A stretch of DNA of 64,000 bases from assembly GCF_001421565.1 (NCBI RefSeq), contig NZ_LMKQ01000001.1, forward strand, positions 1,859,651 to 1,923,650, written 5' to 3'. Made by a program: the position numbers and the translations under genes. The notes below the pieces were generated by a model, which was given only the letters and a program-made list of their open reading frames with translations, did no database searches and was not told where the DNA came from. This stretch comes from Agromyces sp. Leaf222. Its GTDB lineage: Bacteria > Actinomycetota > Actinomycetes > Actinomycetales > Microbacteriaceae. Of this stretch, positions 21,112 to 33,252 are shown in pieces (position 1 is the stretch's first letter; the number at the start of each line of letters is the position of its first letter).

Positions 21112-21176
21112 GTGAGGTCTTCTTCACGTCCCCGAAACAGACGGGGGCACGTCGCGAAACACGCCGTTTATAACGT
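21112..21176 (+). promoter_or_regulatory. GlnR-like box array and promoter of the sirohydrochlorin chelatase-like gene
   Basis: Half-sites on an 11-bp grid: GTGAG 21112, TTCAC 21123, GAAAC 21134 and GAAAC 21156 (22 bp after the previous). A TAnnnT hexamer (TAACGT, 21171-21176) begins exactly 10 bp after the last GAAAC. This is the GTnAC-n6-GAAAC pattern known for actinobacterial GlnR. The same arrangement, including spacings, is found at nirD. Confidence 0.65.
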
Positions 21177-21225
21177 CGATACCGGCGGCATCGAGCGAGA
21201 CCCCGCCGGAGAGTGCGGGTTGTCG

Positions 21226-21987
21226 ATGGCTGGGCCGAGTGGCGATGACCCCCTGTCGGGACGCGACGAGCGACCGCCGCTGAGACTGATCGCCGTCACG
21301 CACGGCTCCCCGTCGACCGCGAACCGCAAGGCCGTGATGCGCCTGGTCGACCGCGTCGCGATGGTCGAGCCCGGCATCGAGGTCGCGATCGACTTCGTCG
21401 ACGCGAAGAGCGCCGACGTCGCCGCGGCCGTCGCGGCGGCGGGCCAGACCGACGCGGTCATCGTGCCGCTGACGCTGTCGGCGGGCTACCACGTGCGCAC
21501 CGGCCTCGCGTTCGGTCTCGAGCGCATCGGCGGGGGAGTACGACTCGCGGCCGAGCTCGGCCCCGACGACCGGCTCGTCGGCATCCTCGCCGAGCGTCTC
21601 GTCGATGCCGGGCTCGAGGACGGCGACGCGGTGCTGCTCGCCGCGGCCGGGTCGAATGATCCCCGTGCCGTGCGCGAGTGCTTCGAGACGGCCCGTCGAC
21701 TCGGGCACCGCCTCGGGCGCCCCGTCACGGTCGGGTTCATCGCCTCGGCGATCCCGCGGCTGCCCGACGCGATGGAGATGATCCGCGAGGTGCATCCCGG
21801 CACCCGCATCGCCGTGGCGGCGTACGTGCTCGCCCCCGGCACCTTCTACGACGCTGCCGTCGCGATGGGTGCCGACCTCATCGCCGAGCCGCTCATCGCA
21901 CCCGGAAGGGCGGTGCCGTCGGCACTCGTCGAGGTGGTGCTCGATCGGTACGAGGCCGTCGAGTCCGAGCGGCACCACTACGCCTGA
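21226..21987 (+). CDS. Sirohydrochlorin chelatase-like protein (CbiX/SirB family)
   Basis: 253 residues from ATG at 21226; an in-frame TTG at 21220 is better spaced from GGAGAG (21208-21213) and may be the true start. It has two CbiX-like halves: LIAVTHGSPSTANRKAVMRLV with the metal-binding His, and a second half with PVTVGFIASAIPRLPDAMEMI. The family inserts Fe2+ (or Co2+) into sirohydrochlorin. With SUMT (cobA) in the same block and sirohaem-dependent NirB nearby, ferrochelation for sirohaem is the likely role. Preceded by a GlnR-like promoter. Confidence 0.82.
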   Translation: MAGPSGDDPLSGRDERPPLRLIAVTHGSPSTANRKAVMRLVDRVAMVEPGIEVAIDFVDAKSADVAAAVAAAGQTDAVIVPLTLSAGYHVRTGLAFGLERIGGGVRLAAELGPDDRLVGILAERLVDAGLEDGDAVLLAAAGSNDPRAVRECFETARRLGHRLGRPVTVGFIASAIPRLPDAMEMIREVHPGTRIAVAAYVLAPGTFYDAAVAMGADLIAEPLIAPGRAVPSALVEVVLDRYEAVESERHHYA

Positions 21988-21995
21988 CCCCCTGA

Positions 21996-22013
21996 CCCCG
22001 CGGCGACGCGGGG
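21996..22013. terminator. Short GC hairpin between convergent genes
   Basis: CCCCGCG-GCGA-CGCGGGG: a 7-bp stem with a 4-nt loop in the 45-bp gap between the chelatase gene and the convergent FAD reductase. There is no U-tract, so it is only a possible terminator. Confidence 0.35.
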
Positions 22014-22032
22014 GCGCGGCGCGCGGGGCGGA

Positions 22033-23640
22033 TCAGACCGCGAGCGTCGGCGTGCCGTCGGCGTCGGCGACCCGTGCCAGCACCTCGGCGATGCGGCCGC
22101 GGCAGCCGCCGCAGCCGGTGCCGGCGCGGGTGTCGCGGCTGACGCACTCGACGGTCGTGTTGCCGCAGGCCGCGGATTCCTCGATGCGGCCGACCGTGAC
22201 GGCGTTGCACCAGCAGACGGTGGTCGCAGGGGCGAACGCGTCGGCGTCGGCTGCGGGATCGTAGTCGGGGCCGTCGAAGCGCAGCAGCAGCGACCGGTCG
22301 GCGGGCAGCTCGCCGCCCCGCTCGAACAGCAGGGTGAGCTCGGCGGCCGTGCGCGGCATCCCGACGCTCACGAAGCCCGTCAGCACGCCCTCCTCGGTGA
22401 CCATCTTCACGTAGCGGAGGTGCTCGGGGTCGGCCCACTGCGCGATGCGCCGCCGAGGGTGCAGGCCGTCGTCGTCCCACGGGTCGCCTGAGATGTCGCC
22501 GACGGCGACGACGTCGATGTGCTCGGCCTTCAGCATGACGAGCGCATCCCGCTCGACGGGCGTCACGATGTCGTGCTCGCGGCGTTCGGCCTCGGCGAGG
22601 AACGACCCGGCGAGCCACGCGGCCTGACGCCAGCCGGGCCCGATGAGCCCCGAGGGCGCGCCGGGGAGCGTGCGCTGGCCGGCCAGCTCGTCGGTGCGCT
22701 CGACGACCTGCGCGCAGTCGCCGATCGCGAAGATCGACGAGTCGGTCCAGGAGGCGAGGTTCGGGTGCACGACGATGCCCGCGGCGGTGCGGAGCCCGGC
22801 GAGCACGGCGAGCTCGGTGCGGGCGCTGACTCCGCACGAGAGCACGAGCAGGTCGCCTCGCAACTGCTTGCCGTCGGCGGTCACGAGCATGTCGAAGCGG
22901 CGCACGCCGTCGTCGTCGGTGCGGAAGGCGACCGCCTCTGCGCGGCTGTGCGCGATCACCTGGATGCCGGTGCGCCGCAGCGCCGCTCGCAGCACCTGGC
23001 CTCCGCCGCGGTCGAGGTTGCGCGGCATGGGGTGCGGTCCGTGGTGCACGACGCACACCTGGGCGCCGGCGTGCGCAGCCGCCAGCGCGAGCTCGAGGCC
23101 GAGCACCCCGGCACCGAGCACGATGATGCGCCGCCGCCCGCGCACGGCCTCGAGCACGCGTTCGGCGTCGGCGAGGTCTCGGAGGGCGGTGATGCCCGTG
23201 GGGAGCTCGTCGTCACGGGCGACCAGCTGCCGCCCGTACTTCTCGAGCGAGGCGAGGTCGCGGCGGTGGCGCTCGACGCCGTCGAGGGTCGGCACGTTCG
23301 CGCGGGCGCCGGTGGCCAGCACGAGCCGGTCGTACGGCAGGGTCTCGCCCGTGTCGAGGCGCACCGAGCGGGCCTGGCGGTCGACGGCCGTCACGGCGAC
23401 GCCGAGCAGCACGCGGGCGCCGGCCTCCTCGGCGGTCAGGCGGTCGCCGACGAGCATGGTCTCGAGGTCGGCGTTGCCGACGGCGTACTCGGCGACGAGC
23501 ACCCGGTTGTAGGCCTCGACGTCCTCACCGGCGATCACCGTGAGTTCGACATCGCCGCGCAGCACGCCGGGGAGGAGTTCCTCGACGAACCGGGCGCCGA
23601 CCGGACCGTAGCCGACGAGGACGATCTTGAGCGGGCTCAT
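22033..23640 (-). CDS. FAD/NAD(P)-dependent reductase with C-terminal [2Fe-2S] domain (nitrate reductase electron-transfer partner)
   Basis: 535 residues from ATG at 23640, overlapping the nitrate reductase stop (ATGA). It begins LKIVLVGYGPVGARFVEELL (FAD Rossmann), has the NAD(P)-binding segment IIVLGAGVLGLELALAAAHAGA around residue 180, and ends with a BFD-like [2Fe-2S] domain: VCWCNAVTVG then GTGCGGCRGR (four Cys). The layout equals the N-terminal half of NirB and resembles NasB-type NADH:nitrate reductase subunits. It most likely passes electrons from NAD(P)H to the molybdenum subunit encoded just upstream. Confidence 0.85.
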   Translation of the reverse strand: MSPLKIVLVGYGPVGARFVEELLPGVLRGDVELTVIAGEDVEAYNRVLVAEYAVGNADLETMLVGDRLTAEEAGARVLLGVAVTAVDRQARSVRLDTGETLPYDRLVLATGARANVPTLDGVERHRRDLASLEKYGRQLVARDDELPTGITALRDLADAERVLEAVRGRRRIIVLGAGVLGLELALAAAHAGAQVCVVHHGPHPMPRNLDRGGGQVLRAALRRTGIQVIAHSRAEAVAFRTDDDGVRRFDMLVTADGKQLRGDLLVLSCGVSARTELAVLAGLRTAAGIVVHPNLASWTDSSIFAIGDCAQVVERTDELAGQRTLPGAPSGLIGPGWRQAAWLAGSFLAEAERREHDIVTPVERDALVMLKAEHIDVVAVGDISGDPWDDDGLHPRRRIAQWADPEHLRYVKMVTEEGVLTGFVSVGMPRTAAELTLLFERGGELPADRSLLLRFDGPDYDPAADADAFAPATTVCWCNAVTVGRIEESAACGNTTVECVSRDTRAGTGCGGCRGRIAEVLARVADADGTPTLAV

Positions 23641-25814
23641 GCGAGGACTCCGGTCTCTTCGGCACGGCGGATCGACGCGGCATCCGCGATGCTGCGCATG
23701 CGCACGACGTTCGTCTTGAACTCGGGCATCGACGAGATCGGGTCGACCGCGTCGGAGGTGAGGAGGTTCGCGGCCTGGTCGTCGCCGTAATGGAACGGCA
23801 GGAACACCGCATCGGGTCGGATGTCGGGGGTGTGCCTCGCCCGGCACCGCACGACGCCGCGGTGGTTGGAGATCTCGACCTCGTCGCCGTCGCCGATGCC
23901 CAGGCGCTCGGCGGTCGCCGGGTGGATCGAGGCGAGCGCCTCGGGCTGCGATGCCAGCAGTTCGGGCACGCGACGGGTCTGCGCACCGCTCTGGTAGTGC
24001 TCGAGGAGGCGCCCGGTGACGAGCGTGATCTCGTCGGTCCCCGGAGTGGGCGCGGGCCTGGCCGACTCGCGCACGGTCACGGGCACGAGACGTGCGAGGC
24101 CGTCGGCATGGGCGAACCGGTCGGCGAACAGGCGCGGCGTGCCACCGCTGTCGCGCGGGAACGGCCAGTACGCGGCATCCCCGCGATCGAGCATCGCGTA
24201 GTCGATGCCGGAGTAGTCGGCGAGGCCGCCCTCGGAGGCCAGGCGCAGCTCCTCGAACACCTGCTCGGGATCGGTGTCGAACGCGGCCGTGCAGCCGAGG
24301 CGCTCGGCGAGCTCGTGCAGGATCCACAGCTCGTCGCGCACCCCGGCGGGAGGCGTCACGGCGCGACGGCGACGGATGACGCGGCCCTCGAGCGACGTCA
24401 TCGTGCCTTCCTCCTCGGCCCACTGCGTGATGGGCAGCACGACGTCGGCGAGCGCGGCGGTCTCGGAGAGGAAGAAGTCGCAGACCACGAGGAGGTCGAG
24501 CCGGCCGAGCCCCTCGCGCACCTCGCGCACGTTGGGGGAGGAGACGACGAGGTTCGAGCCGTGCACCATGAGGGCGCGCACACCGCCGTCGACGCCGAGC
24601 AGCTTCAGCAGCTCGATCGCGGGCACGCCGGGGCCGGGCAGGTCGGCCGGGTCGACGCCCCACACGCCCGCCACGTGCGCACGTGCCTCGGGGTCGACGA
24701 TCTTGCGGTATCCGGGCAACTGGTCGCACTTCTGTCCGTGTTCGCGCCCGCCCTGGCCGTTGCCCTGGCCGGTGAGGGTGCCGTAGCCGCTGCCCGCCCG
24801 ACCGGGGAGGCCGAGCAGCAACGCCAGGTTGATCGCGGCGGTCGCGGTGTCGGTGCCGTCGACGTGCTGCTCGACGCCGCGCCCGGTGAGGAGGTACGTG
24901 GTGCCGCCGGCGGCGAGCCTCCGGGCCAGCCGCCTGATCGTGAGCGCCGCGACGCCGGTCACCGACTGCACGCGCTCGGGCCACCAGGCTGCGACGCTGC
25001 GACGCACCCGGTCGAACCCGACCGTGCGGGACTCGACGTAGTCGACGTCGACGAGGCGCTCGGCGATCACGACGTGGATGAGCCCGAGCAGCAGCGGCAG
25101 GTCGGTGCCGGGAGCCGGCTGCAGGTGCAGACCCTTGCCGTCGTCGGTCAGGCGCGCGGTCGCCGTGCGTCGGGGGTCGACCACGACGAGGCCGCCGGCG
25201 GCCTGCGCGCCGGCGAGGTGGCCGATGAACGGGGGCATGGTCTCGGCGACGTTCGTGCCGAGCAGCAGGATCGTCTCGGCACCGTCGAGGTCCTCGAGCG
25301 GGAACGGCAGCCCGCGGTCGACGCCGAACGCCCGGTTGCCCGCTGCGGCCGCCGACGACATGCAGTACCGGCCGTTGTAGTCGATGCGGCTCGTGCCGAG
25401 GGCGAGCCGCGCGAACTTGCCGAGCAGGTACGACTTCTCGTTCGTGAGGCCGCCGCCGCCGAACACGCCGACCGCGTCGGCTCCGTACTCCGAGCGGATG
25501 CCGCGCAGCGACGTCGCGATCAGGTCGAGCGCCTCATCCCACGACGCCTCGTGCAGTGCGCCGTCGGCGCCCCGCACGAGCGGGGCGCCGAGACGCGAGG
25601 GCGATCGCAGGAGTTCCGCCGAGGTCCACCCCTTCTTGCACAGGCCGCCCCGGTTCGTCGGGAAGTCGCGGCCCTCGACCGTGACCGGCGCCGAGTGCAC
25701 GTGGGCATCGGGCGCCGCGTTCGCCGCGGCATCCGTCGTGCCGGTCGTCGGGGTGAGGGTCATCGCGCACTGCAGGGCGCAGTACGGGCAGTGCGTGTCG
25801 GCGGGGTGGGTCAA
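23637..25814 (-). CDS. nasC: Assimilatory nitrate reductase, molybdopterin subunit
   Basis: 725 residues. N-terminal [4Fe-4S] ligands C9, C12, C16 (HCPYCALQC) and a fourth Cys in GGLCKKGWTS. Mo-bisMGD domains follow: GVFGGGGLTNEKSYLLGKFAR, YCMSSAAAAGNRAFG, LLLGTNVAETMPPF and the C-terminal molydopterin dinucleotide domain (TLVTGRLLEHYQSGAQTRRVPEL). No C-terminal [2Fe-2S] domain is fused; that function is in the next gene. It reduces nitrate to nitrite in the cytoplasm. It starts 11 bp after the narK stop, in one operon narK-nasC-reductase. Confidence 0.9.
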   Translation of the reverse strand: MTHPADTHCPYCALQCAMTLTPTTGTTDAAANAAPDAHVHSAPVTVEGRDFPTNRGGLCKKGWTSAELLRSPSRLGAPLVRGADGALHEASWDEALDLIATSLRGIRSEYGADAVGVFGGGGLTNEKSYLLGKFARLALGTSRIDYNGRYCMSSAAAAGNRAFGVDRGLPFPLEDLDGAETILLLGTNVAETMPPFIGHLAGAQAAGGLVVVDPRRTATARLTDDGKGLHLQPAPGTDLPLLLGLIHVVIAERLVDVDYVESRTVGFDRVRRSVAAWWPERVQSVTGVAALTIRRLARRLAAGGTTYLLTGRGVEQHVDGTDTATAAINLALLLGLPGRAGSGYGTLTGQGNGQGGREHGQKCDQLPGYRKIVDPEARAHVAGVWGVDPADLPGPGVPAIELLKLLGVDGGVRALMVHGSNLVVSSPNVREVREGLGRLDLLVVCDFFLSETAALADVVLPITQWAEEEGTMTSLEGRVIRRRRAVTPPAGVRDELWILHELAERLGCTAAFDTDPEQVFEELRLASEGGLADYSGIDYAMLDRGDAAYWPFPRDSGGTPRLFADRFAHADGLARLVPVTVRESARPAPTPGTDEITLVTGRLLEHYQSGAQTRRVPELLASQPEALASIHPATAERLGIGDGDEVEISNHRGVVRCRARHTPDIRPDAVFLPFHYGDDQAANLLTSDAVDPISSMPEFKTNVVRMRSIADAASIRRAEETGVLA

Positions 25815-25825
25815 TGGGGCTCGAT

Positions 25826-27244
25826 TCAGATCTTGTGGGCGCTGAGGCGGCCGGAGCGCACGTACACGGCCCAGGTGAGCACGAGGAGCACGACGTAGGC
25901 CGCGATGAAGCCGGCGAACGCGGCACCGTATCCGCCGGTCGACTGGAACGAGAGGTTCAGCGCCTGCGGAATGAGGAACCCGCCGTAGGCGCCGATCGCG
26001 GAGATCAGGCCGAGGGCCGCCGCGGCCTTCCGCTGCGTCGACACGTCACCGGTGCCGCCGCCGCGGACGGCGAACACGACGGGCACCATGCGGTACGTCG
26101 AGCCGTTGCCGATGCCGGCCGAGGCGAAGAGCAGCAGGAACAGGCCGAGGAACAGCCAGAAGTTGCCGAGCGGGAGCGTCGCGAGCACGGCGATCGTGAC
26201 GAGGGCCATCGAGGCGAAGGCGCACATCGTGATGCGGGCACCGCCGAAGCGGTCGGAGAGGCGCCCGCCGTACGGGCGGGCGAGCGAGCCGACGAGCGCA
26301 CCGAGGAAGGCGAGCGGCACCGCGGCCCCGCCGATGGCGATCGCCGAGAACTCCGGGAACTGGTCGGCGATGAGCTTCGGGAACACGCTCGCGAAGCCGA
26401 TGAACGAGCCGAACGTGCCGATGTAGAGCAGCGACAGCAGCCAGAGGTGCGGCTCCTTCAGCGCTGCGGCCGATCCGCTGAAGTCCGCCTTCGCGTTCGA
26501 GAGGTTGTTCATGTACCGGGCGGCGCCGAGCATCGCGACGAGGATCAACGGGATCCAGATCCACCCGGCGACCGGCAGGTTGAGGGTGGCGCCGGCGCCG
26601 ATGGTGATCGCGATCGGCACGACGAACTGCGCGACCGCGGCGCCGAGGTTTCCGCCGGCCGCGTTCAGGCCGAGGGCCCAGCCCTTCTCGCGCTGGGGGT
26701 AGAAGAAGGTGATGTTCGACATCGAGCTGGCGAAGTTGCCGCCGCCGAAGCCTGCGAGCGCGGCGGCGCCGAGCAGCACCGGGAACGGCGTCTCGGGGTT
26801 CGACACGCACACGACCATCGCGATCGTCGGCGCGAGCAGCAGCGCGGCCGAGATGATGGTCCAGTTGCGGCCGCCGAACTTGGGCACGAGGAACGAGTAC
26901 GGGATCCGCAGGGTCGCGCCGACCAGGCTCGGAATCGAGATGAGCCAGAAGATCTCGCCGGTGGTCAGGTCGAAGCCGGCGGCGGGGAGCGCGACGGCGA
27001 CGACGCTCCAGAGCTGCCAGACCACGAACCCGAGGAATTCGGCGAAGATCGACCAGTTGAGGTTGCGCCGCGCGATCGAGCGCCCCTGCGACTCCCACTG
27101 ATCGGTGTTCTCGGGGTCCCAGCCGTCGATCCACCGGCCTGGCCGGGTCGTCAGCTCGGGGGCCGTCGTCGCCGTCGTGGTCGCGGACGTCGCCGTCGCG
27201 GATGTCGCGGCGACCGGGGGAGCGGTGCTCGTCGTCTGGGTCAT
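25826..27244 (-). CDS. narK: Nitrate/nitrite transporter NarK (NNP family MFS)
   Basis: 472 residues from ATG at 27244, chosen over an ATG 24 bp upstream because GGAGG lies 5 bp before it. After a roughly 35-residue Ala/Thr-rich N-terminus come twelve predicted hydrophobic helices. Family motifs seen: FAEFLGFVVWQLWSVV (helix 1), GAAALAGFGGGNFASSMSNITFFYPQREKGWALGLNAAGGNLG (NNP signature, in helices 4-5) and GSLARPYGGRLSDRFGG. It imports nitrate (and possibly exports nitrite). First gene of its operon, behind the GlnR-like/dyad promoter at 27289-27376. Confidence 0.93.
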   Translation of the reverse strand: MTQTTSTAPPVAATSATATSATTTATTAPELTTRPGRWIDGWDPENTDQWESQGRSIARRNLNWSIFAEFLGFVVWQLWSVVAVALPAAGFDLTTGEIFWLISIPSLVGATLRIPYSFLVPKFGGRNWTIISAALLLAPTIAMVVCVSNPETPFPVLLGAAALAGFGGGNFASSMSNITFFYPQREKGWALGLNAAGGNLGAAVAQFVVPIAITIGAGATLNLPVAGWIWIPLILVAMLGAARYMNNLSNAKADFSGSAAALKEPHLWLLSLLYIGTFGSFIGFASVFPKLIADQFPEFSAIAIGGAAVPLAFLGALVGSLARPYGGRLSDRFGGARITMCAFASMALVTIAVLATLPLGNFWLFLGLFLLLFASAGIGNGSTYRMVPVVFAVRGGGTGDVSTQRKAAAALGLISAIGAYGGFLIPQALNLSFQSTGGYGAAFAGFIAAYVVLLVLTWAVYVRSGRLSAHKI

Positions 27245-27288
27245 GGGTGCCTCCGAGGTGTGGATCACGTGGTGGAGCCTTCGACTCG

Positions 27289-27331
27289 AAGCTATTGAGG
27301 TCGTGTTTCCGCGGATCGGCCCGGTCGTAAA
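27289..27331 (-). promoter_or_regulatory. GlnR-like box and promoter of the narK operon
   Basis: Reading the minus strand: TTTAC (27331-27327), six bases, a degenerate GCCGA, six bases, GAAAC (27309-27305), exactly 10 bp, then TAGCTT (27294-27289, TAnnnT). Period 11 bp throughout. The box ends 61 bp before the narK ATG. The middle half-site is weak compared with the nirB box. Confidence 0.6.
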
Positions 27332-27347
27332 CCCTGCGTCTCCACCT

Positions 27348-27376
27348 CCTCACCCAGGCGAGGGCCCGGTGTGAGG
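27348..27376. promoter_or_regulatory. Dyad CCTCACC-N13-GGTGTGAGG upstream of narK
   Basis: This 29-bp interrupted inverted repeat lies between the end of the HemD/winged-helix gene and the narK GlnR-like box, separated from the latter by 16 bp. An identical arrangement with the same N13 and 16-bp spacings occurs at 32026-32054. Candidate site for the NnaR-like regulator encoded next door (inference). Confidence 0.6.
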
Positions 27377-27382
27377 CGGACG

Positions 27383-28513
27383 TCACACGTCGATGCGGTA
27401 CCCCCGCTTCACCACCGTGGCGATCAGCCCCGGCACGGCGAGCGTCTGGCGCAGGCGGCTCAGGGCGACCTCGAGGGCATGCTCGTCGTTCGTGCCCGGC
27501 AACCCGGCGGCGAGCCGATCGCGGGCGACCACCGAGCCGCGCGCGAGCACGAGCGTGCGGAGGATCATGAGCGCGACCGGCGCAAGGGAGACCCTGCGGT
27601 CGGCGATGTCGACGACGCTTCCGCGCAGTGCGAGCGGCCCGTGCAACGTCTCGAGTCGGATCACCCGGTTCGTCTCCAGGTGCTCGCACACGAGCCTGAT
27701 GAGCGCGCCCATGCGGTACCGGTCGGGCTGGATCGGCGTGATGCCCGCCGCGATCAGCGGGAGCGCGGTGACCGGGCCCACCGCCGCGGCGACGACCGGG
27801 CCGCACATGGCGTCGACGAGGTCGTCGTAGCGCCCGAGCTCCTCCGCGGCGCCGAAGAGCGCGTGCACGGCCGGTGCACTGGTGAATGTGATGGCGTCCA
27901 GGCCTCCGGTGCACGCCGCCTCGATGAGGCGCTCGACGCGATCATCTGCCTTGTCGACCTCGACCCAGCGGTACGGGGCGACGGTGAGCACGCGGTCGTG
28001 CGCGTCGCTCAAGCGCTGGAGTTGCGACGACTCGAGGAACCCGTGCAGCTGCACGGCCACCGTGAGGTCTGCCGGATAGTGCTCGAGCACATGGTCGATG
28101 AGCGACTCGGTGGTCTCCTCGGAGCTCATGCCCACGTCGTTCAGGCCCGCGGCACGGATGCCGCCACGGGCCTTCGGCCCGCGCACGAGGATCGAGGTGT
28201 CGGCGAGCGCGTCGAGCAGGTCCTCGCCGAGGCCCGCGGCGTCGGCGACCTCGAACCAGCGGCGCACGCCGTACGCGGTGGTCGCGAGCAGCACCTCGGG
28301 CCGTGCCGCGATGATCGCCCGGGTGTCGGCGATCACCGGATCGTCGGAGAGGGCGTTCGTCATGCGCAGCGTCGGCGCGTGCACGACGGTCGCACCGCGG
28401 CGGGCGAGCGCGTCGATGAGGTCGGCCGAGCGGCGATCGCTCGTGACGCCGATGCGGAACCCGACGAGCTGGTCGACGCGGAACCCGGGAGCGAACTCGA
28501 GGAGGTCGGTCAT
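27383..28513 (-). CDS. nnaR: HemD-domain/winged-helix transcriptional regulator, NnaR-like (uroporphyrinogen-III synthase fold)
   Basis: 376 residues; ATG overlaps the cobA stop (ATGA). Residues 1 to about 265 have the two-lobed uroporphyrinogen-III synthase fold (GFRIGVTSDRRSADLIDAL ... AITFTSAPAVHALFGAA). Residues from about 285 to the end form an OmpR-type winged helix (LRGSVVDIADRRVSLAPVALMILRTL ... VVKRGYRIDV). This architecture is that of NnaR, described in Streptomyces and mycobacteria as a co-activator with GlnR of nitrate/nitrite genes. Residual synthase activity for haem or sirohaem supply cannot be excluded. Third gene of nirB-cobA-nnaR. Confidence 0.8.
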   Translation of the reverse strand: MTDLLEFAPGFRVDQLVGFRIGVTSDRRSADLIDALARRGATVVHAPTLRMTNALSDDPVIADTRAIIAARPEVLLATTAYGVRRWFEVADAAGLGEDLLDALADTSILVRGPKARGGIRAAGLNDVGMSSEETTESLIDHVLEHYPADLTVAVQLHGFLESSQLQRLSDAHDRVLTVAPYRWVEVDKADDRVERLIEAACTGGLDAITFTSAPAVHALFGAAEELGRYDDLVDAMCGPVVAAAVGPVTALPLIAAGITPIQPDRYRMGALIRLVCEHLETNRVIRLETLHGPLALRGSVVDIADRRVSLAPVALMILRTLVLARGSVVARDRLAAGLPGTNDEHALEVALSRLRQTLAVPGLIATVVKRGYRIDV

Positions 28514-29334
28514 CCGGCCACCGCCGCGAAGCCGGCCGCGCGCTCCATGAGCTCGGCGGCGCTCGCGTCGCCGTCGTGGGCGAGGCGCACGACCTCGCCG
28601 ATGACGACGACCGCCGGGGAGGACACGCGCGCGCGTCCGGCCGTCGTGACGATGTCGGCGAGTTCGCCGATGGTCGTGCGCTGCTCCGACGAGAACCCGC
28701 GTTCGACGATGGCCACCGGCATCCGCCCGACCATGCCGGCCCGGGCGAGGCCCGCGGTGAGCGAGGGCAGGGTGTTCACGCCCATGAGCACCACGATGGT
28801 GCCGCCGAGGCCCGCGAGGTGCTCCAATTCGGATGCCGTGAGCGGCTGGTGCCCCGACACGACCGTGAACAGGTGGCTGACGCCGCGATGCGTGAGGGGG
28901 ATGCCGGCGGCCCCTGGCACCGAGATCGCACTCGTGACGCCGGGAATCACCTCGACCGGCACGCCGGCGGCGTGGCAGGCGAGCACCTCTTCGCCACCGC
29001 GGCCGAGCACGTACGGGTCGCCGCCCTTGAGCCGCACGACCCTGGATCCGGCGAGGGCGTGCTCGACGAGCAGCGCCTCGATCGCGGACTGGGAGATCGC
29101 GTGGTGGCCCGGTCGCTTGCCCACGTCGATGAGCAGCGCACCGGGGGCGAGCTCGTCGAGGCGGTCGTGCGGGGCGAGCCGGTCGTAGAGCACGACGTCG
29201 GCGTGGCGAAGAGCCCGCACCGCGGCGAGCGTGAGGAGGTCCTCGCGGCCGGGGCCTCCGCCGACGAGCGTCACGCTGCCGGTCGCACGGCCGTCGCCGG
29301 TCGCACGGCCGTCGCCGGTCAGGTCGGCGCTCAC
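28510..29334 (-). CDS. cobA: Uroporphyrinogen-III C-methyltransferase (SUMT)
   Basis: 274 residues; GTG overlaps the nirB stop (GTGA). Tetrapyrrole methylase fold: VTLVGGGPGREDLLTLAAVRAL, VVLYDRLAPHDRL, VRLKGGDPYVLGRGGEE and PGVTSAISVPGAAGIPLTHRG, all SUMT signatures. It turns uroporphyrinogen III into precorrin-2, the first step to sirohaem needed by NirB. It has no fused precorrin-2 dehydrogenase domain. The first 20 codons contain an in-frame tandem repeat (TGDGRA twice), so a start a few codons later is possible. Confidence 0.93.
   Translation of the reverse strand: MSADLTGDGRATGDGRATGSVTLVGGGPGREDLLTLAAVRALRHADVVLYDRLAPHDRLDELAPGALLIDVGKRPGHHAISQSAIEALLVEHALAGSRVVRLKGGDPYVLGRGGEEVLACHAAGVPVEVIPGVTSAISVPGAAGIPLTHRGVSHLFTVVSGHQPLTASELEHLAGLGGTIVVLMGVNTLPSLTAGLARAGMVGRMPVAIVERGFSSEQRTTIGELADIVTTAGRARVSSPAVVVIGEVVRLAHDGDASAAELMERAAGFAAVAG
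29281..29316. repeat. Two tandem 18-bp repeats at the 5' end of cobA
   Basis: GGTCGCACGGCCGTCGCC occurs twice head-to-tail and a third copy begins (GGTC). In the cobA frame it encodes TGDGRA repeats upstream of the conserved SUMT fold. Copy-number slippage would stay in frame. Confidence 0.9.
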
Positions 29335-31940
29335 GCGTCCACCCCGCGAACCGGGATCGTCATGCCGGCCACCAGCACGGCCTCGCCGCGCTCGCGCTCC
29401 TCGGCGGTCGCGGGTCGCATCTGGCCGCGACCGTCAGGCACCTGGGCGACCGACGGATCCGGCACGTGCGGCGCGTTCACGAAGGACCGGAACCGGCGCA
29501 GGCGCTCGGGGTCGGCCAGCGTCGCCGCCCACTCGTCCTCGTAGCCGTCGACGTGTCGGTCGACGGCCCGCTCGAGCTCGTCTGCGAGGCCGAGCGAGTC
29601 GTGCACGACGACGTCGCGCACGTGGTCGAGTCCGCCCTCGATGTCCTCGATCCAGCGTGCGGTGCGCTGCAGCCGGTCGGCCGTGCGCACGTAGTACATG
29701 ATGTAGCGGTCGATGTACTTCAGCAGGGTCTCGTCGTCGAGGTCGCTCGCGAGCAGTTGCGCGTGGGCCGGCTGGAATCCGCCGTTACCGCCGACGTACA
29801 TGTTCCACCCCTGGTCGGTGGCGATCACGCCGACGTCCTTGCCCCTGGCCTCCGCGCATTCACGGGCGCAGCCCGAGACACCGAACTTGAGCTTGTGCGG
29901 CGAGCGGAGGCCGCGGTAGCGCAGCTCGAGCTGCACGGCCATCGCGACCGAGTCCTGCACGCCGTAGCGGCACCAGGTCGAGCCGACGCAGCTCTTCACG
30001 TTGCGGAGCGCCTTGCCGTATGCCTGGCCCGACTCGAAGCCGGCGTCCACGAGCCGCTTCCAGATGTCGGGCAGTTGGTCGAGCCGTGCACCGAAGAGGT
30101 CGATGCGCTGGCCGCCCGTGATCTTCGTGTAGAGGCCGTAGTCGGTCGCGACCTGGGCGATGACGAGGAGCTTCTCGGGCGTGATCTCGCCGGCGGGGAT
30201 GCGCGGCACGACCGAGTACGTGCCGTCCTTCTGCATGTTCGCCATGGCACGGTCGTTCGTGTCCTGCAGGCCGCCGCGGCCGCCGTCGAGGATGTAGGAG
30301 CCGTGCTGGGTGGCGAGGATCGACCCGACGACCGGCTTGCAGACGTCGCAGCCGCGGCCGGTTCCGAGGCGCGCGATGATCTCGTCGAACGAGGTGAGCT
30401 CGAGCACCCGGATCGACTCGAAGAGCTCCTGCCGCGAGAGCTCGAAGTGCTCGCAGAGGGCCCGCGAGGGCGTGATGCCCGATTTCGTGAGCTCGGCCTC
30501 GAGCAGCTTCTTCACGAGCGGCACGCACGAGCCGCACTGCGTGCCGGCGCGGGTGCAGGCCTTCAGCTCGCCGAGGTCGGTGCACCCCTCGGCGTGCTCG
30601 GTTCCGTTCACGGCATCGCGGATGGTGCCGGCCGCGACGTTGTTGCAGGCGCACACGAGCGCCGAGGCGGGCAACTCGTCGCCGGCCGGCGCCTCCATGC
30701 CCGAGGCCGACAGGTACGCAGCGGGCTCGGACGAGAGCTGCATGCCGAGCATCGGCCTGAGCGAGGCGTACGGCGACGCGTCGCCGACGAAGATGCCGCC
30801 GAGCAGCGTCTTCGCATCGTCGGTCATGACGAGCTTCTGGTAGAGCCCGCGTGCCGGATCGGCGTAGACGATCTCGAGCGCCTGCTCCGTGCGGGCGAGC
30901 GCGTCGCCGAAGCTCGCGACGTCGACGCCCGAGAGCTTCAGCTTGGTCGCGTCGTCGATGGTCGTGAACTCGGCGGCCCCGCCGAGCAGGCGGTCGGCGA
31001 CGACCTCGGCCATGGCGTTCGCGGGGGCGACGAGGCCGGTGCATCGGCCCTCGAAGCTCGCGACCTCGCCGATCGCCCAGATACCGGGCGCGGATGTCGC
31101 GCACGCCCCGTCGATCGCCACCCCGCCGCGGGGTCCGAGCTCGAGCCCGAGATCGCGGGCGAGTTCGTCGCGCGGGCTGATGCCGATCGCGAAGATGACG
31201 AGGTCGGCCTCGATCACGCGCTCGTTCGTGAGCTCGACCGCCGTGACGGCGCCGTCGTCGACGCGAACCGCGGAGGGCCTGGCCCCGAGGTGCAGGCCGA
31301 TGCCCTGCGCCGAGATGATGCGGCCGAGCGCCCGGCCGGCGCCCTCGTCGAGCTGCGCCGACATGAGCCATCCGCCCGAGTGCACGACGGCGACGTGCGC
31401 GCCGAGCTTCGCGAGCCCCCCTGCGGCCTCGAGGCCGAGCAGGCCGCCGCCCGCGACGACGACGCGCGCCGGGCGTCCGTGCCGCTCGGCGAGCTGCGCG
31501 GCCTCGGCGACGAGGTTGTCGACGTCCTCGATCGTGCGGTACACGCGGGCGTTCTCGGCACCGGGAATGGCGGGCACCGGCGCGCTCGAACCGGTCGCGA
31601 GCACGAGCTCGTCCCAATGCAGCACCGTGCCCGTCGAGGTCGTCGCGGTCCGCAGCCCGGCGTCGATCGAGTCGACCAGCTCGCCCGTGATCAGCCGCAC
31701 CTGCGACGGATCCCACATCGCGGTCGGCTGCAGCGTCAGGTCGGCGGAGCCGTCGGCGAGGCGCGTGCTGAGCGCCACGCGGTCGTAGGGGAGGTGGGGC
31801 TCGTCGCCGATCACGGTGACGCGGAGCGTGCGCTCCTCGTCGCGCATGTGCAGGCTGTCGGCGAGTCGATGGGCGGCGGGTCCGCCGCCGACGATGACGA
31901 CGTCGCGCGTGCGGATGCCGGCCGGGCTGTTCTCGGTCAT
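29331..31940 (-). CDS. nirB: Nitrite reductase (NADH) large subunit
   Basis: 869 residues from ATG at 31940. Order of domains: FAD-binding Rossmann (DVVIVGGGPAAHRLADSLH), NAD-binding (RVVVAGGGLLGLEAAGGLAKLG, about residue 160), BFD-like [2Fe-2S] domain (VCACNNVAAG ... TQCGSCVPLVKKLL, about residues 430-480), then the ferredoxin-like and sirohaem/[4Fe-4S] nitrite reductase domains with Cys ligands in SCVGSTWC and SGCAREC (about residues 640-690). It reduces nitrite to ammonium with NADH. First gene of nirB-cobA-nnaR; the partner nirD is transcribed divergently from the same regulatory region, not downstream as in enterobacteria. Confidence 0.96.
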   Translation of the reverse strand: MTENSPAGIRTRDVVIVGGGPAAHRLADSLHMRDEERTLRVTVIGDEPHLPYDRVALSTRLADGSADLTLQPTAMWDPSQVRLITGELVDSIDAGLRTATTSTGTVLHWDELVLATGSSAPVPAIPGAENARVYRTIEDVDNLVAEAAQLAERHGRPARVVVAGGGLLGLEAAGGLAKLGAHVAVVHSGGWLMSAQLDEGAGRALGRIISAQGIGLHLGARPSAVRVDDGAVTAVELTNERVIEADLVIFAIGISPRDELARDLGLELGPRGGVAIDGACATSAPGIWAIGEVASFEGRCTGLVAPANAMAEVVADRLLGGAAEFTTIDDATKLKLSGVDVASFGDALARTEQALEIVYADPARGLYQKLVMTDDAKTLLGGIFVGDASPYASLRPMLGMQLSSEPAAYLSASGMEAPAGDELPASALVCACNNVAAGTIRDAVNGTEHAEGCTDLGELKACTRAGTQCGSCVPLVKKLLEAELTKSGITPSRALCEHFELSRQELFESIRVLELTSFDEIIARLGTGRGCDVCKPVVGSILATQHGSYILDGGRGGLQDTNDRAMANMQKDGTYSVVPRIPAGEITPEKLLVIAQVATDYGLYTKITGGQRIDLFGARLDQLPDIWKRLVDAGFESGQAYGKALRNVKSCVGSTWCRYGVQDSVAMAVQLELRYRGLRSPHKLKFGVSGCARECAEARGKDVGVIATDQGWNMYVGGNGGFQPAHAQLLASDLDDETLLKYIDRYIMYYVRTADRLQRTARWIEDIEGGLDHVRDVVVHDSLGLADELERAVDRHVDGYEDEWAATLADPERLRRFRSFVNAPHVPDPSVAQVPDGRGQMRPATAEERERGEAVLVAGMTIPVRGVDA

Positions 31941-31966
31941 GGTGCCTCCGTGGCTCGAATGCTGCC

Positions 31967-32009
31967 AACGTACGACCGAGCGGTTTCGGCCCTGTTACGT
32001 GGGCGTAAC
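31967..32009 (-). promoter_or_regulatory. GlnR-like box and promoter of nirB-cobA-nnaR
   Basis: Minus strand: GTTAC (32009-32005), GCCCAC, GTAAC (31998-31994), AGGGCC, GAAAC (31987-31983), 10 bp, TACGTT (31972-31967). Two GTnAC half-sites and one GAAAC on a perfect 11-bp period make this the best GlnR-consensus site in the window. The -10-like hexamer ends 26 bp before the nirB ATG. Confidence 0.75.
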
Positions 32010-32025
32010 CGCTCCCGCAACCGCG

Positions 32026-32054
32026 CCTCACCTTCGGGGCGCCACGGTGTGAGG
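32026..32054. promoter_or_regulatory. Shared dyad CCTCACC-N13-GGTGTGAGG between nirB and nirD
   Basis: It lies 16 bp from the nirB GlnR-like box and directly abuts the nirD box (TTCAC starts 11 bp after GTGAG). Same sequence, same N13 gap and same 16-bp offset as the dyad at narK. Candidate co-activator site serving both divergent genes (inference). Confidence 0.62.
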
Positions 32055-32059
32055 CGGGT

Positions 32060-32113
32060 TTCACGTCGGGGAAACACCCGCAGCCGCGCACGGAAACACC
32101 GGCCCCGTACGTT
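32060..32113 (+). promoter_or_regulatory. GlnR-like box array and promoter of nirD
   Basis: TTCAC 32060, GAAAC 32071 and GAAAC 32093 on an 11/22-bp grid, then 10 bp and TACGTT at 32108-32113. The arrangement matches the chelatase promoter at 21123-21176 position for position. GTGAG of the adjacent dyad (32049) is in phase with the grid. Confidence 0.67.
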
Positions 32114-32141: not shown

Positions 32142-32501
32142 ATGACGATCACGATCGAGGCGACCACGACCTGGGTTCGGGTCTGCGAGGTCCGGGAACT
32201 CGAGCCCGGGTGGGGCGAGGTGGCCCTGCTCGGAACCGACCAGGTCGCGCTCGTGCGCCTCGGCGACGACGAGGTCTACGCGGTCGACCACCGGGACCCG
32301 CACACCGGCGCACCCGTCATGGCCCGCGGCATCACGGGTTCACGTGGCGACCGGCTCACGATCGCCTCGCCACTGCACAAGGAGGTCTACGACCTCGTCA
32401 CGGGCGAGTGCCTCACGAACGGGGAGCTCTCGCTCCGCGTCTTCGGGGCGCGCGTCCTCGACGGCATGGTCGAGGTCGAGGTGCTCAGCCCCGCTTCGTG
32501 A
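32142..32501 (+). CDS. nirD: Nitrite reductase (NADH) small subunit
   Basis: 119 residues from ATG with GGGAGGAG 5-8 bp upstream. Rieske-fold protein (WVRVCEVRELEPGWGEVALLG ... YAVDHRDPHTGAPVMARGI ... SPLHKEVYDLVTGECL) without the Cys/His iron-sulfur ligands, which is normal for NirD. It pairs with NirB. It is transcribed away from nirB, and its last 17 bp overlap the 3' end of the convergent map gene. Confidence 0.94.
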   Translation: MTITIEATTTWVRVCEVRELEPGWGEVALLGTDQVALVRLGDDEVYAVDHRDPHTGAPVMARGITGSRGDRLTIASPLHKEVYDLVTGECLTNGELSLRVFGARVLDGMVEVEVLSPAS

Positions 32502-33252
32502 GCACGATGGGGTCGCCGTCGGTGATGGCGATCGTGTGCTCGGAGTGCGCGCCGCGCGAGCCGTCGGCGCTGCGGAGGGTCCAGCCGTCGGGATCGGTGA
32601 AGATGCGATCGGTCGTCGCGAGGAACCACGGCTCGATCGCGATGACGAGTCCCGGCTTGAGCGGCAGCCCTCGGCCGGGGCGGCCGTTGTTCGGGATGTG
32701 CGGGTCGCCGTGCATGGTGCGGCCGACGCCGTGGCCGCCGAAGTCGGTGTTGATCGTGTAGCCCTCGGCCTTCGCGACATCCGCGATGGCCCGGGAGATG
32801 TCGCCGATGCGGTTGCCCGTGCGCGCCGCGGCGATGCCGGCGTCGAGCGCGCGCTGCGTCGTGTCGATCAGGCGGAGGTCGCCCTCGCGCGGGGTGCCGA
32901 CGACGATCGAGCGCGCCGAGTCGCAGACCCAGCCGTTCACCGAAGCGGCGAAGTCGAGGCTCAGCAGGTCGCCGTCGCGCAGCGTGTAGTCGTGGGGGAG
33001 TCCGTGCAGCACCGCGTCGTTGACCGAGGTGCAGATGACCTTGCCGAACGGGCTCGCGCCGAACGAGGGGTGGTAGTCGATGTAGCAGCTCTCGGCGCCC
33101 GCCTTGCGGATCATCTCGTGCGCGAGGGCGTCGAGCTCGAGCAGGTTCACGCCGACGGCCGCAGCCTGCGACGTGGCCTCGATGACGCTCGCGACGAAGC
33201 GCCCGGCGGCGCGCATCTCGTCGATCTCGGCGGTGGTCCTCAGTTCGATCAC
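32485..33252 (-). CDS. map: Methionine aminopeptidase type I
   Basis: 255 residues. The five metal ligands are visible: Asp in LLSLDFAASV, Asp in VCDSARS, His in FGGHGVGRTMH, Glu in VIAIEPWF and Glu in GAHSEHTI. It removes the initiator Met from nascent proteins. It is divergent from the small membrane protein gene at 33340 and convergent with nirD. In many bacteria map sits near secY or rpsB; here it lies at the edge of the nitrate block. Confidence 0.96.
   Translation of the reverse strand: MIELRTTAEIDEMRAAGRFVASVIEATSQAAAVGVNLLELDALAHEMIRKAGAESCYIDYHPSFGASPFGKVICTSVNDAVLHGLPHDYTLRDGDLLSLDFAASVNGWVCDSARSIVVGTPREGDLRLIDTTQRALDAGIAAARTGNRIGDISRAIADVAKAEGYTINTDFGGHGVGRTMHGDPHIPNNGRPGRGLPLKPGLVIAIEPWFLATTDRIFTDPDGWTLRSADGSRGAHSEHTIAITDGDPIVLTKRG

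Follow-up and report, generated by a model that had tools for sequence, protein, structure and literature searches.

Which regulators act at the nitrate and nitrite assimilation promoters of Agromyces sp. Leaf222, and in what arrangement? In the window, the whole stretch of 64,000 nucleotides analysed here, four promoters, upstream of a sirohydrochlorin chelatase gene, nirB, nirD and narK, had been predicted to carry an 11-bp-phased grid of GlnR-like half-sites, followed at a fixed distance by a TAnnnT -10 hexamer. When the sequence was re-read by script, each half-site and hexamer was located at the predicted coordinate and strand. The window holds 4 copies of the motif GAAAC-N10-TAnnnT, whereas 100 dinucleotide-preserving shuffles gave a mean of 0.05 and a maximum of 2. 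Features are listed in Table 1; positions are counted from the promoter-proximal GAAAC (position 0), with GlnR boxes at -33, -22, -11 (a2) and 0.

Table 1. Promoter elements and genes of the nitrate and nitrite assimilation region (window coordinates)
Feature	Position	Strand	Basis
Chelatase gene, NnaR-type half-site GTGAG at -44, single (ACGTC at -66)	21112..21116	+	sequence
Chelatase gene, -33 GlnR box a1, TTCAC	21123..21127	+	sequence
Chelatase gene, -22 GlnR box b1, GAAAC	21134..21138	+	sequence
Chelatase gene, promoter-proximal GlnR box b2, GAAAC	21156..21160	+	sequence
Chelatase gene, predicted -10, TAACGT	21171..21176	+	sequence
CbiX-type sirohydrochlorin chelatase gene	21226..21987	+	PF01903, 63.2 bits; NCBIfam chelatase models far below cut-off
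FAD/NAD(P) reductase with BFD-like domain	22033..23640	-	overlaps stop of nitrate-reductase-like gene
Molybdopterin nitrate-reductase-like gene downstream of narK, start codon uncertain	23637..25814	-	PF00384, PF01568, PF04879
narK, nitrate/nitrite transporter	25826..27244	-	MFS_1; best NCBIfam models NarU/NarK, both below cut-offs
narK, predicted -10, TAGCTT	27289..27294	-	sequence
narK, promoter-proximal GlnR box, GAAAC	27305..27309	-	sequence
narK, -22 box, TTTAC	27327..27331	-	sequence; conserved
narK, -33 box, GAGAC	27338..27342	-	sequence; conserved
narK, GTGAG at -44	27353	-	sequence; overlooked in the original prediction
narK, NnaR-type palindrome CTCAC-N17-GTGAG, 7 bp past nnaR stop codon	27349..27375	-	sequence
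nnaR, HemD-like domain and Trans_reg_C DNA-binding domain	27383..28513	-	PF02602, PF00486; PRK07239 above cut-off
cobA/sumT, uroporphyrinogen-III C-methyltransferase, overlaps both neighbours	28510..29334	-	TIGR01469 above cut-off
nirB, nitrite reductase large subunit, first in nirB-cobA-nnaR	29331..31940	-	TIGR02374 above cut-off
Bidirectional nirB/nirD promoter element, mirror-symmetric, 147 bp	31967..32113	.	-10 hexamer to -10 hexamer; sequence, whole-genome pattern, spacing in relatives
nirB, predicted -10, TACGTT	31967..31972	-	sequence
nirB, promoter-proximal GlnR box, GAAAC	31983..31987	-	sequence
nirB, -11 GlnR box, GTAAC	31994..31998	-	sequence; conserved in nirB, in contrast to narK and nirD
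nirB, -22 GlnR box, GTTAC	32005..32009	-	sequence; conserved
nirB, GTGAG at -44	32031	-	sequence; overlooked in the original prediction
NnaR-type palindrome CTCAC-N17-GTGAG common to nirB and nirD	32027..32053	.	exact pattern search; published motif (PMC6277429, PMC11162112)
nirD, -33 GlnR box a1, TTCAC	32060..32064	+	sequence; conserved
nirD, -22 GlnR box b1, GAAAC	32071..32075	+	sequence; conserved
nirD, -11 position (a2), AGCCG, degenerate	32082..32086	+	sequence; not conserved
nirD, promoter-proximal GlnR box b2, GAAAC	32093..32097	+	sequence
nirD, predicted -10, TACGTT	32108..32113	+	sequence
nirD, nitrite reductase small subunit	32142..32501	+	TIGR02378 above cut-off

The four are very probably composite promoters for nitrate and nitrite assimilation, activated by NnaR and GlnR together; judged from sequence, they would form a variant of the known GlnR/NnaR system, new in form. 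GTnAC/GAAAC boxes in 11-bp steps are present, as in a GlnR regulon, and a GlnR homologue is encoded in the genome (top PDB matches 8hih, 245.8 bits, and 8hig, 244.8 bits). The predicted grid holds as to phase, but is not fully occupied: the -11 box is degenerate in the chelatase, nirD and narK promoters, the -33 box in nirB. As in an NnaR regulon, nirB, nirD and narK carry a palindrome (N17) near the GlnR motif, and NnaR is encoded, the gene being named from domain layout and gene position; there is also a second, stand-alone HemD match. GTGAG is found exactly 44 bp upstream of GAAAC in all four promoters, and CTCAC-N17-GTGAG is complete in three, the chelatase promoter having half only. The CTCAC at -66 in nirB, nirD and narK, and the single central palindrome that nirB and nirD have in common, had been missed.

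Over the whole 4.43-Mb genome, GAAAC-N10-TAnnnT alone is a weak search model and was rejected (10 matches, versus 6 for the reversed-pattern control). Six of these matches fall outside the window, and four of them were inspected: L002 and L008 have no convincing boxes, L007 has one lone GAAAC, and in L001, where GTGAG is absent at -44, TTCAC and GAAAC are shifted from the phase by one base. With GTGAG added, the model GTGAG-N39-GAAAC-N10-TAnnnT has 4 matches in the genome, which are the four window promoters, and 0 control matches. Exact CTCAC-N17-GTGAG occurs at 3 places, 2 inside the window and the third on another contig. The same palindrome with one mismatch was discarded as uninformative (128 matches per strand vs 68).

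The ladder had been ascribed to one activator. This part is not supported: GTGAG does not end in AC as the other boxes do, it has an inverted CTCAC as partner 22 bp further upstream in all but the chelatase promoter, it fits the published NnaR motif, and it co-occurs with nnaR. It is improbable that GlnR alone binds the entire ladder, GTGAG included, as one extended array, NnaR having no direct part. GTGAG shares the 11-bp phase, a phase scan peaking at 0 mod 11 in the narK, nirD and nirB promoter sets alike, and six GlnR sites are reported in the S. coelicolor amtB promoter (PMC5826061). Yet the -44 box ends in AG and the others in AC, and in M. smegmatis GlnR was reported to depend on AC-n9-AC (PMC3662644); the -66 half-site is inverted; CTCAC/GTGAG agrees with the published NnaR motif (PMC6277429, PMC11162112); and L001, which has further GlnR-like boxes, is without GTGAG at -44. 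In the nirD sequences of relatives the fraction with C as fifth base is 0.02 at -44, but 0.81 for the -33 box and 0.79 for the -22 box.

The composite pattern was found in 58 of 398 genomes of the family, in 27 of 85 genera, with two control matches over the 398 rows (counted by eye). Among 30 loci fetched, the next gene behind the site is nirD, nirB, narK or the chelatase gene in 25, a count that includes the genome studied here. The fixed 10 bp recurs among the best 80 of 126 relatives (spacing not preset, window included): GAAAC-N10-TAnnnT is found upstream of nirB in 60/80, of nirD in 57/79 and of narK in 33/47, counts that are not independent events, since relatives share ancestry. At the same loci it is found upstream of nnaR in 0/78 and of cobA in 0/78. 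Half-sites and flanking sequence are not equally conserved. Boxes carry more information than spacers in narK (1.08 vs 0.39 bits), nirD (0.87 vs 0.19) and nirB (1.02 vs 0.24), with p from 6.6e-7 to 1.5e-8, the anchor columns being conserved by construction because only sequences with GAAAC-N10-TAnnnT were profiled; spacers are near background. At loci with two anchors, preference was given to the anchor that has GTG[AC]G near -44; rows more than 80% alike were removed, which reduced narK from 33 to 19, nirD from 57 to 43 and nirB from 60 to 36.

In relatives, the -44 and -33 positions of nirB hold little information (0.48 and 0.43 bits), because GTGCG frequently takes the place of the half-site there and the step is often 43 instead of 44 bp. 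The nirD step is 45 bp in 9 regions. In the compared loci the distance to the -10 is the fixed part, and the NnaR register differs from group to group by one or two bases. With start codons extrapolated from tblastn, the estimated distance from GAAAC to the start codon ranges from 22 to 146 bp for nirB and from 15 to 180 bp for nirD. A class-wide composite search with free gaps matched at least 175 of 394 genomes, much of it by chance, as control matches were many. In one genus (g117 of family f26) 19 of 21 genomes matched, and TAnnnT lies exactly 10 bp behind GAAAC in 11 of 24 loci fetched; loci were reported only if this distance was 9–11 bp, and all reported have 10. The two gaps are N18/N38 in 7 of the 11, N16/N38 in 3 and N18/N40 in 1.

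Over the 398 family genomes, composite pattern and nnaR occur together in 55, the composite alone in 3, nnaR alone in 36, and neither in 304, an association confounded by the fact that nnaR travels with nitrate genes. The exact composite is thus absent from 36 of 91 nnaR-bearing genomes. Presence of nnaR was defined by a match below 1e-40; at E up to 0.001 the number is 106 of 398, and of the 15 weak matches excluded almost all cover just the DNA-binding domain. At nirB loci of the best 80 of 126 relatives nnaR was seen in 77, the remaining three being on short contigs.

The predicted lack of a -35 element was borne out: 0 of 150 promoters have four or more bases matching TTGACA, against about 6% in shuffles. 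The promoters share two features of PhoB-type promoters: 10 bp separate the final repeat from the -10, and no -35 is recognisable. In the E. coli Pho box, 8-bp direct repeats with a 3-bp linker lie 10 bp upstream of a TAN3T/A -10 (PMC1906773), and the 10-bp distance is thus already known; regulator and motif differ, and the PhoB system has no NnaR-type co-activator. MtrA, or a PhoP-type regulator, may be considered as main owner of the boxes, which would make it a repressor or co-regulator of the promoters in place of GlnR as activator. MtrA is encoded in the genome (333 bits vs PDB 2gwr), its motif is described as nearly identical to that of GlnR (PMC6277429), and in Streptomyces it competes for GlnR boxes, as at the nirB1 cluster promoter of S. 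coelicolor (PMC6988585). This reading has little probability: the genes controlled serve nitrogen use, and the distance of 10 bp and missing -35 suit an activator. A role of MtrA would also be compatible with one of GlnR, since overlap of the two is the reported situation.

In the NnaR and GlnR reading, GlnR at -33, -22, -11 and 0 would occupy a single face of the DNA up to 10 bp before the -10 hexamer, and would substitute for the missing -35. NnaR would bind directly upstream in phase with the 11-bp ladder, at GTGAG (-44) and the inverted CTCAC (-66), two turns (22 bp) apart. Under nitrogen shortage, and with nitrate or nitrite present, the two may jointly recruit RNA polymerase. Four 5-bp boxes in 11-bp steps are known from GlnR a-b-a-b promoters, and the degenerate -11 resembles the degenerate, dispensable a2 site in amtB and nas (PMC5826061); here, in contrast, NnaR-type half-sites extend the ladder upstream. 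The GlnR transcription activation complex holds four head-to-tail GlnR (PMC10704036). In M. smegmatis and S. coelicolor the NnaR palindrome CTCAC...GTGAG stands beside the GlnR motif at a fairly conserved spacing (PMC6277429, PMC10704036), and the nirB, narK and nasA promoters involve the same two regulators and the same kind of targets. The M. smegmatis motif, CTCAC[A/C]-16N-[T/G]GTGAG, corresponds to N18, against N17 (22-bp step) here. Further differences from these systems are the exact -66/-44 register to GlnR array and -10, the divergent nirB and nirD on one palindrome, and a separate chelatase gene that has just the GTGAG half-site.

The chelatase gene had been placed in the nitrogen regulon, and the same promoter type upstream of it in five genomes of the genus supports this assignment. 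CTCAC at -66 was absent in 5/5 of the genomes read, and the promoter lacks the full palindrome of an NnaR regulon. Among the best 80 of 126 relatives (nirB loci and window), the anchor motif precedes the gene in just 2 of 50 regions, because 47 of the 50 chelatase matches sit directly behind nirD. In M. abscessus, a single operon with one predicted NnaR site, narK3-nirBD-nnaR-sirB, encodes a nitrate transporter, nitrite reductase, NnaR and a siroheme chelatase, and sirB goes up, not down, upon nnaR deletion (PMC11162112). In Agromyces the units are divergent and separate, and the chelatase has its own promoter. The frames of nirB-cobA-nnaR overlap and probably form an operon; nnaR within the nirB unit would provide positive feedback.

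What appears new is the single NnaR-type palindrome, common to divergent nirB and nirD, at the centre of a mirror-symmetric element. Its GTGAG halves lie 44 bp from the GAAAC of nirD (32093, plus strand) and from that of nirB (31987, minus strand). The GAAAC 5' ends are 106 bp apart and the -10 hexamers 135 bp, which does not fit an overlapping bidirectional promoter of the E. coli type, with one core serving polymerase either way. In those promoters, likewise pseudo-symmetric DNA with two divergent transcripts, RNA polymerase can, owing to the symmetry, bind either way round, and the two orientations compete (Warman et al. 2026, PMC12825309); here the common part is an activator-type site. 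No operator shared by nirB and nirD was found described in the literature searched on GlnR/NnaR systems, as far as the text of these sources extends, and no literature linking GlnR, NnaR and Microbacteriaceae together was found.

With relaxed anchors (single-base variants of GAAAC, N9–11), the anchors are 105 or 106 bp apart in 70 of 78 nirB/nirD regions, from loci of the best 80 of 126 relatives; of the other eight, three measure 104 or 107, one 84, and four have no pair. In shuffles of these regions, preserving base composition only, any anchor pair at 61–169 bp was found in 2 of 15600. The palindrome was sought in relatives as C[TG]CAC-N17-GTG[AC]G. With the gap left free over 30 values, the mirror pattern matched 45 of 398 family genomes, all 45 at 104–107 bp, and control columns were all 0 by eye. 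That the constant spacing is simply inherited from a recent common ancestor, with no selection on the geometry, is very unlikely, even though the relatives come from one order and several groups are near-identical in the region. Inter-box spacers average just 0.19–0.39 bits, yet the distance is kept; intergenic lengths (185–361 bp in the regions compared) and GAAAC-to-start distances vary widely; and the 44 regions with both exact anchors span ten named genera, Nesterenkonia included, plus MAGs.

A stronger reading is tentative, its chances falling slightly short of even: nirB/nirD would be a rigid two-sided activator element, in which one central NnaR dimer nucleates two GlnR arrays outward, a single binding event turns on the two subunit genes equally strongly, and about 106 bp are kept indel-free by selection across Microbacteriaceae and relatives. 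With the NnaR palindrome at the exact centre, and GlnR array and -10 outward on either side, a single site may switch both subunits of one enzyme together, a possible advantage for stoichiometry. The loosely described co-regulation by an NnaR motif near a GlnR motif would become an exact geometric model, searchable and testable. Being compact, natural and symmetric, the nirB/nirD element may be useful in studies of how a single regulator serves two polymerases and coordinates two enzyme subunits.

Genes and palindromes of the nitrate block are listed in the table. In the nirB, cobA and nnaR frames, each end overlaps the next start. NirB is 96% identical to the Agromyces allii protein. A minus-strand M24 peptidase frame (window 32485-33252) runs towards nirD, the last 17 bp of which it overlaps.

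Features of the nitrate block (window positions)
Feature	Position	Strand	Remarks
CbiX-type chelatase gene	21226-21987	+	separate from other nitrate genes
Reductase gene	22033-23640		after nitrate-reductase-like gene
Molybdopterin nitrate-reductase-like gene	23637-25814		next after narK
narK	25826-27244	-	
CTCAC-N17-GTGAG	27349-27375		narK palindrome
nnaR	27383-28513	-	
cobA	28510-29334	-	
nirB	29331-31940	-	
CTCAC-N17-GTGAG	32027-32053		nirB/nirD palindrome
nirD	32142-32501	+	divergent from nirB

The predicted promoter pattern is real and conserved. All half-sites and -10 hexamers were found in place, by sequence reading and by script. The anchor GAAAC-N10-TAnnnT occurs in four promoters (nirB, nirD, narK, chelatase gene), 4 times in the window against 0.05 expected. 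It is significant in the block, yet alone makes a poor genome-wide model, because it has 10 matches in the whole genome versus 6 for the reversed control. One match (L007:1501-1521; G000:C1:1947924-1947944) is a lone GAAAC-N10-TATCGT immediately upstream of a putative NAD synthetase gene. Another (L001:1467-1521; G000:C1 about 417384-417438) is a further GlnR-like promoter (TTCAC, GAAAC, GAAAC-N10-TAAGTT), with upstream boxes one base out of phase and no GTGAG at -44; it precedes a 249-aa frame with no Pfam match.

Upstream regions were scanned with free spacing in the nirB loci of the best 80 of 126 relatives, plus the window. In this set the anchor marks 60/80 nirB, 57/79 nirD and 33/47 narK regions, 2/50 chelatase regions, and none of the 78 nnaR or 78 cobA regions. 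Other common GAAAC-to-TAnnnT spacings (21, 32, 33) are mostly due to adjacent GAAAC boxes. A -35 element, predicted to be missing, was not seen: TTGACA was matched at 4 or more positions in 0/150 promoters. The 10 bp from the predicted activator site to -10 in the four promoters recall E. coli PhoB, which keeps the same distance to a TAN3T/A -10 (PMC1906773).

Positions are counted from the promoter-proximal GAAAC. In the nirB, nirD and narK alignments alike, boxes are richer in information than spacers and the phase scan has its peak at 0 mod 11. The -11 box (a2) is conserved in nirB, barely in narK and nirD; a2 sites are reported as dispensable in amtB and nas (PMC5826061).

GTGAG, found by script at -44 in 4/4 promoters, had been read as a GlnR-like half-site. 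This reading is unlikely: among the 43 nirD promoters left after dereplication, C is the fifth base in 0.02 of sequences at -44, versus 0.81 at -33 and 0.79 at -22, M. smegmatis GlnR binding needs an AC-n9-AC core (PMC3662644), and the distal partner, CTCAC, is inverted, as in the NnaR palindrome. The published NnaR motif, CTCAC[A/C]-16N-[T/G]GTGAG, adjoins the GlnR motif (PMC6277429; quoted in PMC11162112). By script, CTCAC lies at -66 in the nirB, nirD and narK promoters. Exact CTCAC-N17-GTGAG occurs at only three places in the 4.43-Mb genome, two of them in the window. GlnR is likely one of two regulators; the second, likely NnaR, encoded in the window, had been missed. The nnaR product is a fusion of HemD-like and Trans_reg_C domains; a second HemD match lies elsewhere in the genome, and therefore the product need not serve haem synthesis. 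The narK palindrome lies 7 bp past the nnaR stop codon (window 27349-27385), leaving gene end and control site nearly contiguous.

Among the best 80 of 126 relatives plus the window, the GTGAG-to-GAAAC step is 44 in 46 and 45 in 9 nirD regions, 44 in 27 narK regions, and 43 in 13 and 44 in 3 nirB regions; the CTCAC-to-GTGAG step is 22 in 16 nirB and 24 narK regions, and 20 in 5 nirB regions.

The composite GTGAG-N39-GAAAC-N10-TAnnnT was found in 58/398 family genomes (27/85 genera); the reversed pattern gave 2 matches over the 398 rows, counted by eye. In 25 of 30 fetched loci the site is immediately upstream of nirD, nirB, narK or the chelatase gene; in 2, cobA or nnaR is nearby and the target ambiguous; in 3, none of six query proteins was found. 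The nnaR gene (E below 1e-40) is present in 91/398 family genomes, and in 55 of the 58 bearing the composite, an association rather than evidence of binding, because nnaR adjoins the nitrate genes.

In the window, the nirB GAAAC box lies 106 bp from that of nirD, and the palindrome midway between them. Both exact anchors occur in 44/79 divergent nirB|nirD regions (window included), at 105 bp in 25 and 106 bp in 19; in the 36 of these 44 also having a relaxed palindrome (C[TG]CAC-N17-GTG[AC]G), its centre is 52-54 bp from either GAAAC. With relaxed anchors (single-base GAAAC variants, N9-11), pairs spaced by 105 or 106 bp occur in 70/78 regions (window excluded), the intergenic lengths of these being 185 to 361 bp; of the other eight, three have 104 or 107, one has 84 and four lack a pair. 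Any pair at 61-169 bp was found in 2/15600 shuffled regions. Whole genomes were searched for two outward-facing anchors, with 30 gap values permitted. Matches were found in 45/398 family genomes, one per genome, with every distance within 104-107 bp (3, 20, 21 and 1); 44 of the 45 also have nnaR. Order-wide, 18/376 genomes matched: nine family members already found, seven of one genus of another family (g86) and two others. All seven (loci L237-L243) have divergent nirB|nirD at 107 bp; their central half-sites differ in appearance from those in the window. Controls, read by eye, were 0 throughout both tables. The pair lies between nirB and nirD in 37/39 loci fetched from both searches. Pairs at loci L220 and L235, with none of six query proteins, look like chance.

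CTCAC at -66 of the chelatase promoter is absent in the window and four other genomes of the genus. In these five genomes the chelatase gene is separate, with its own nirD-like promoter. Among nirB loci of the best 80 of 126 relatives, the gene was seen in 50, in 47 immediately behind nirD, and chelatases behind nirD are 37-51% identical to that of the window. The different placement may reflect two lineages or relocation.

By analogy with related systems, the promoters most likely work through GlnR and NnaR. Nitrogen shortage would activate GlnR, which would occupy the boxes and stand in for the -35. NnaR would bind immediately upstream, on the same helix face, and supply the nitrate/nitrite signal, perhaps via its HemD-like domain; S. 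coelicolor NnaR is reported to bind cooperatively with GlnR at the nirB promoter (PMC10704036). The individual parts are already known. No description of the exact composite register or the shared symmetric nirB|nirD element was found in the open literature searched, the main subscription papers being outside its scope. The promoters would be a new variation on the GlnR/NnaR system.
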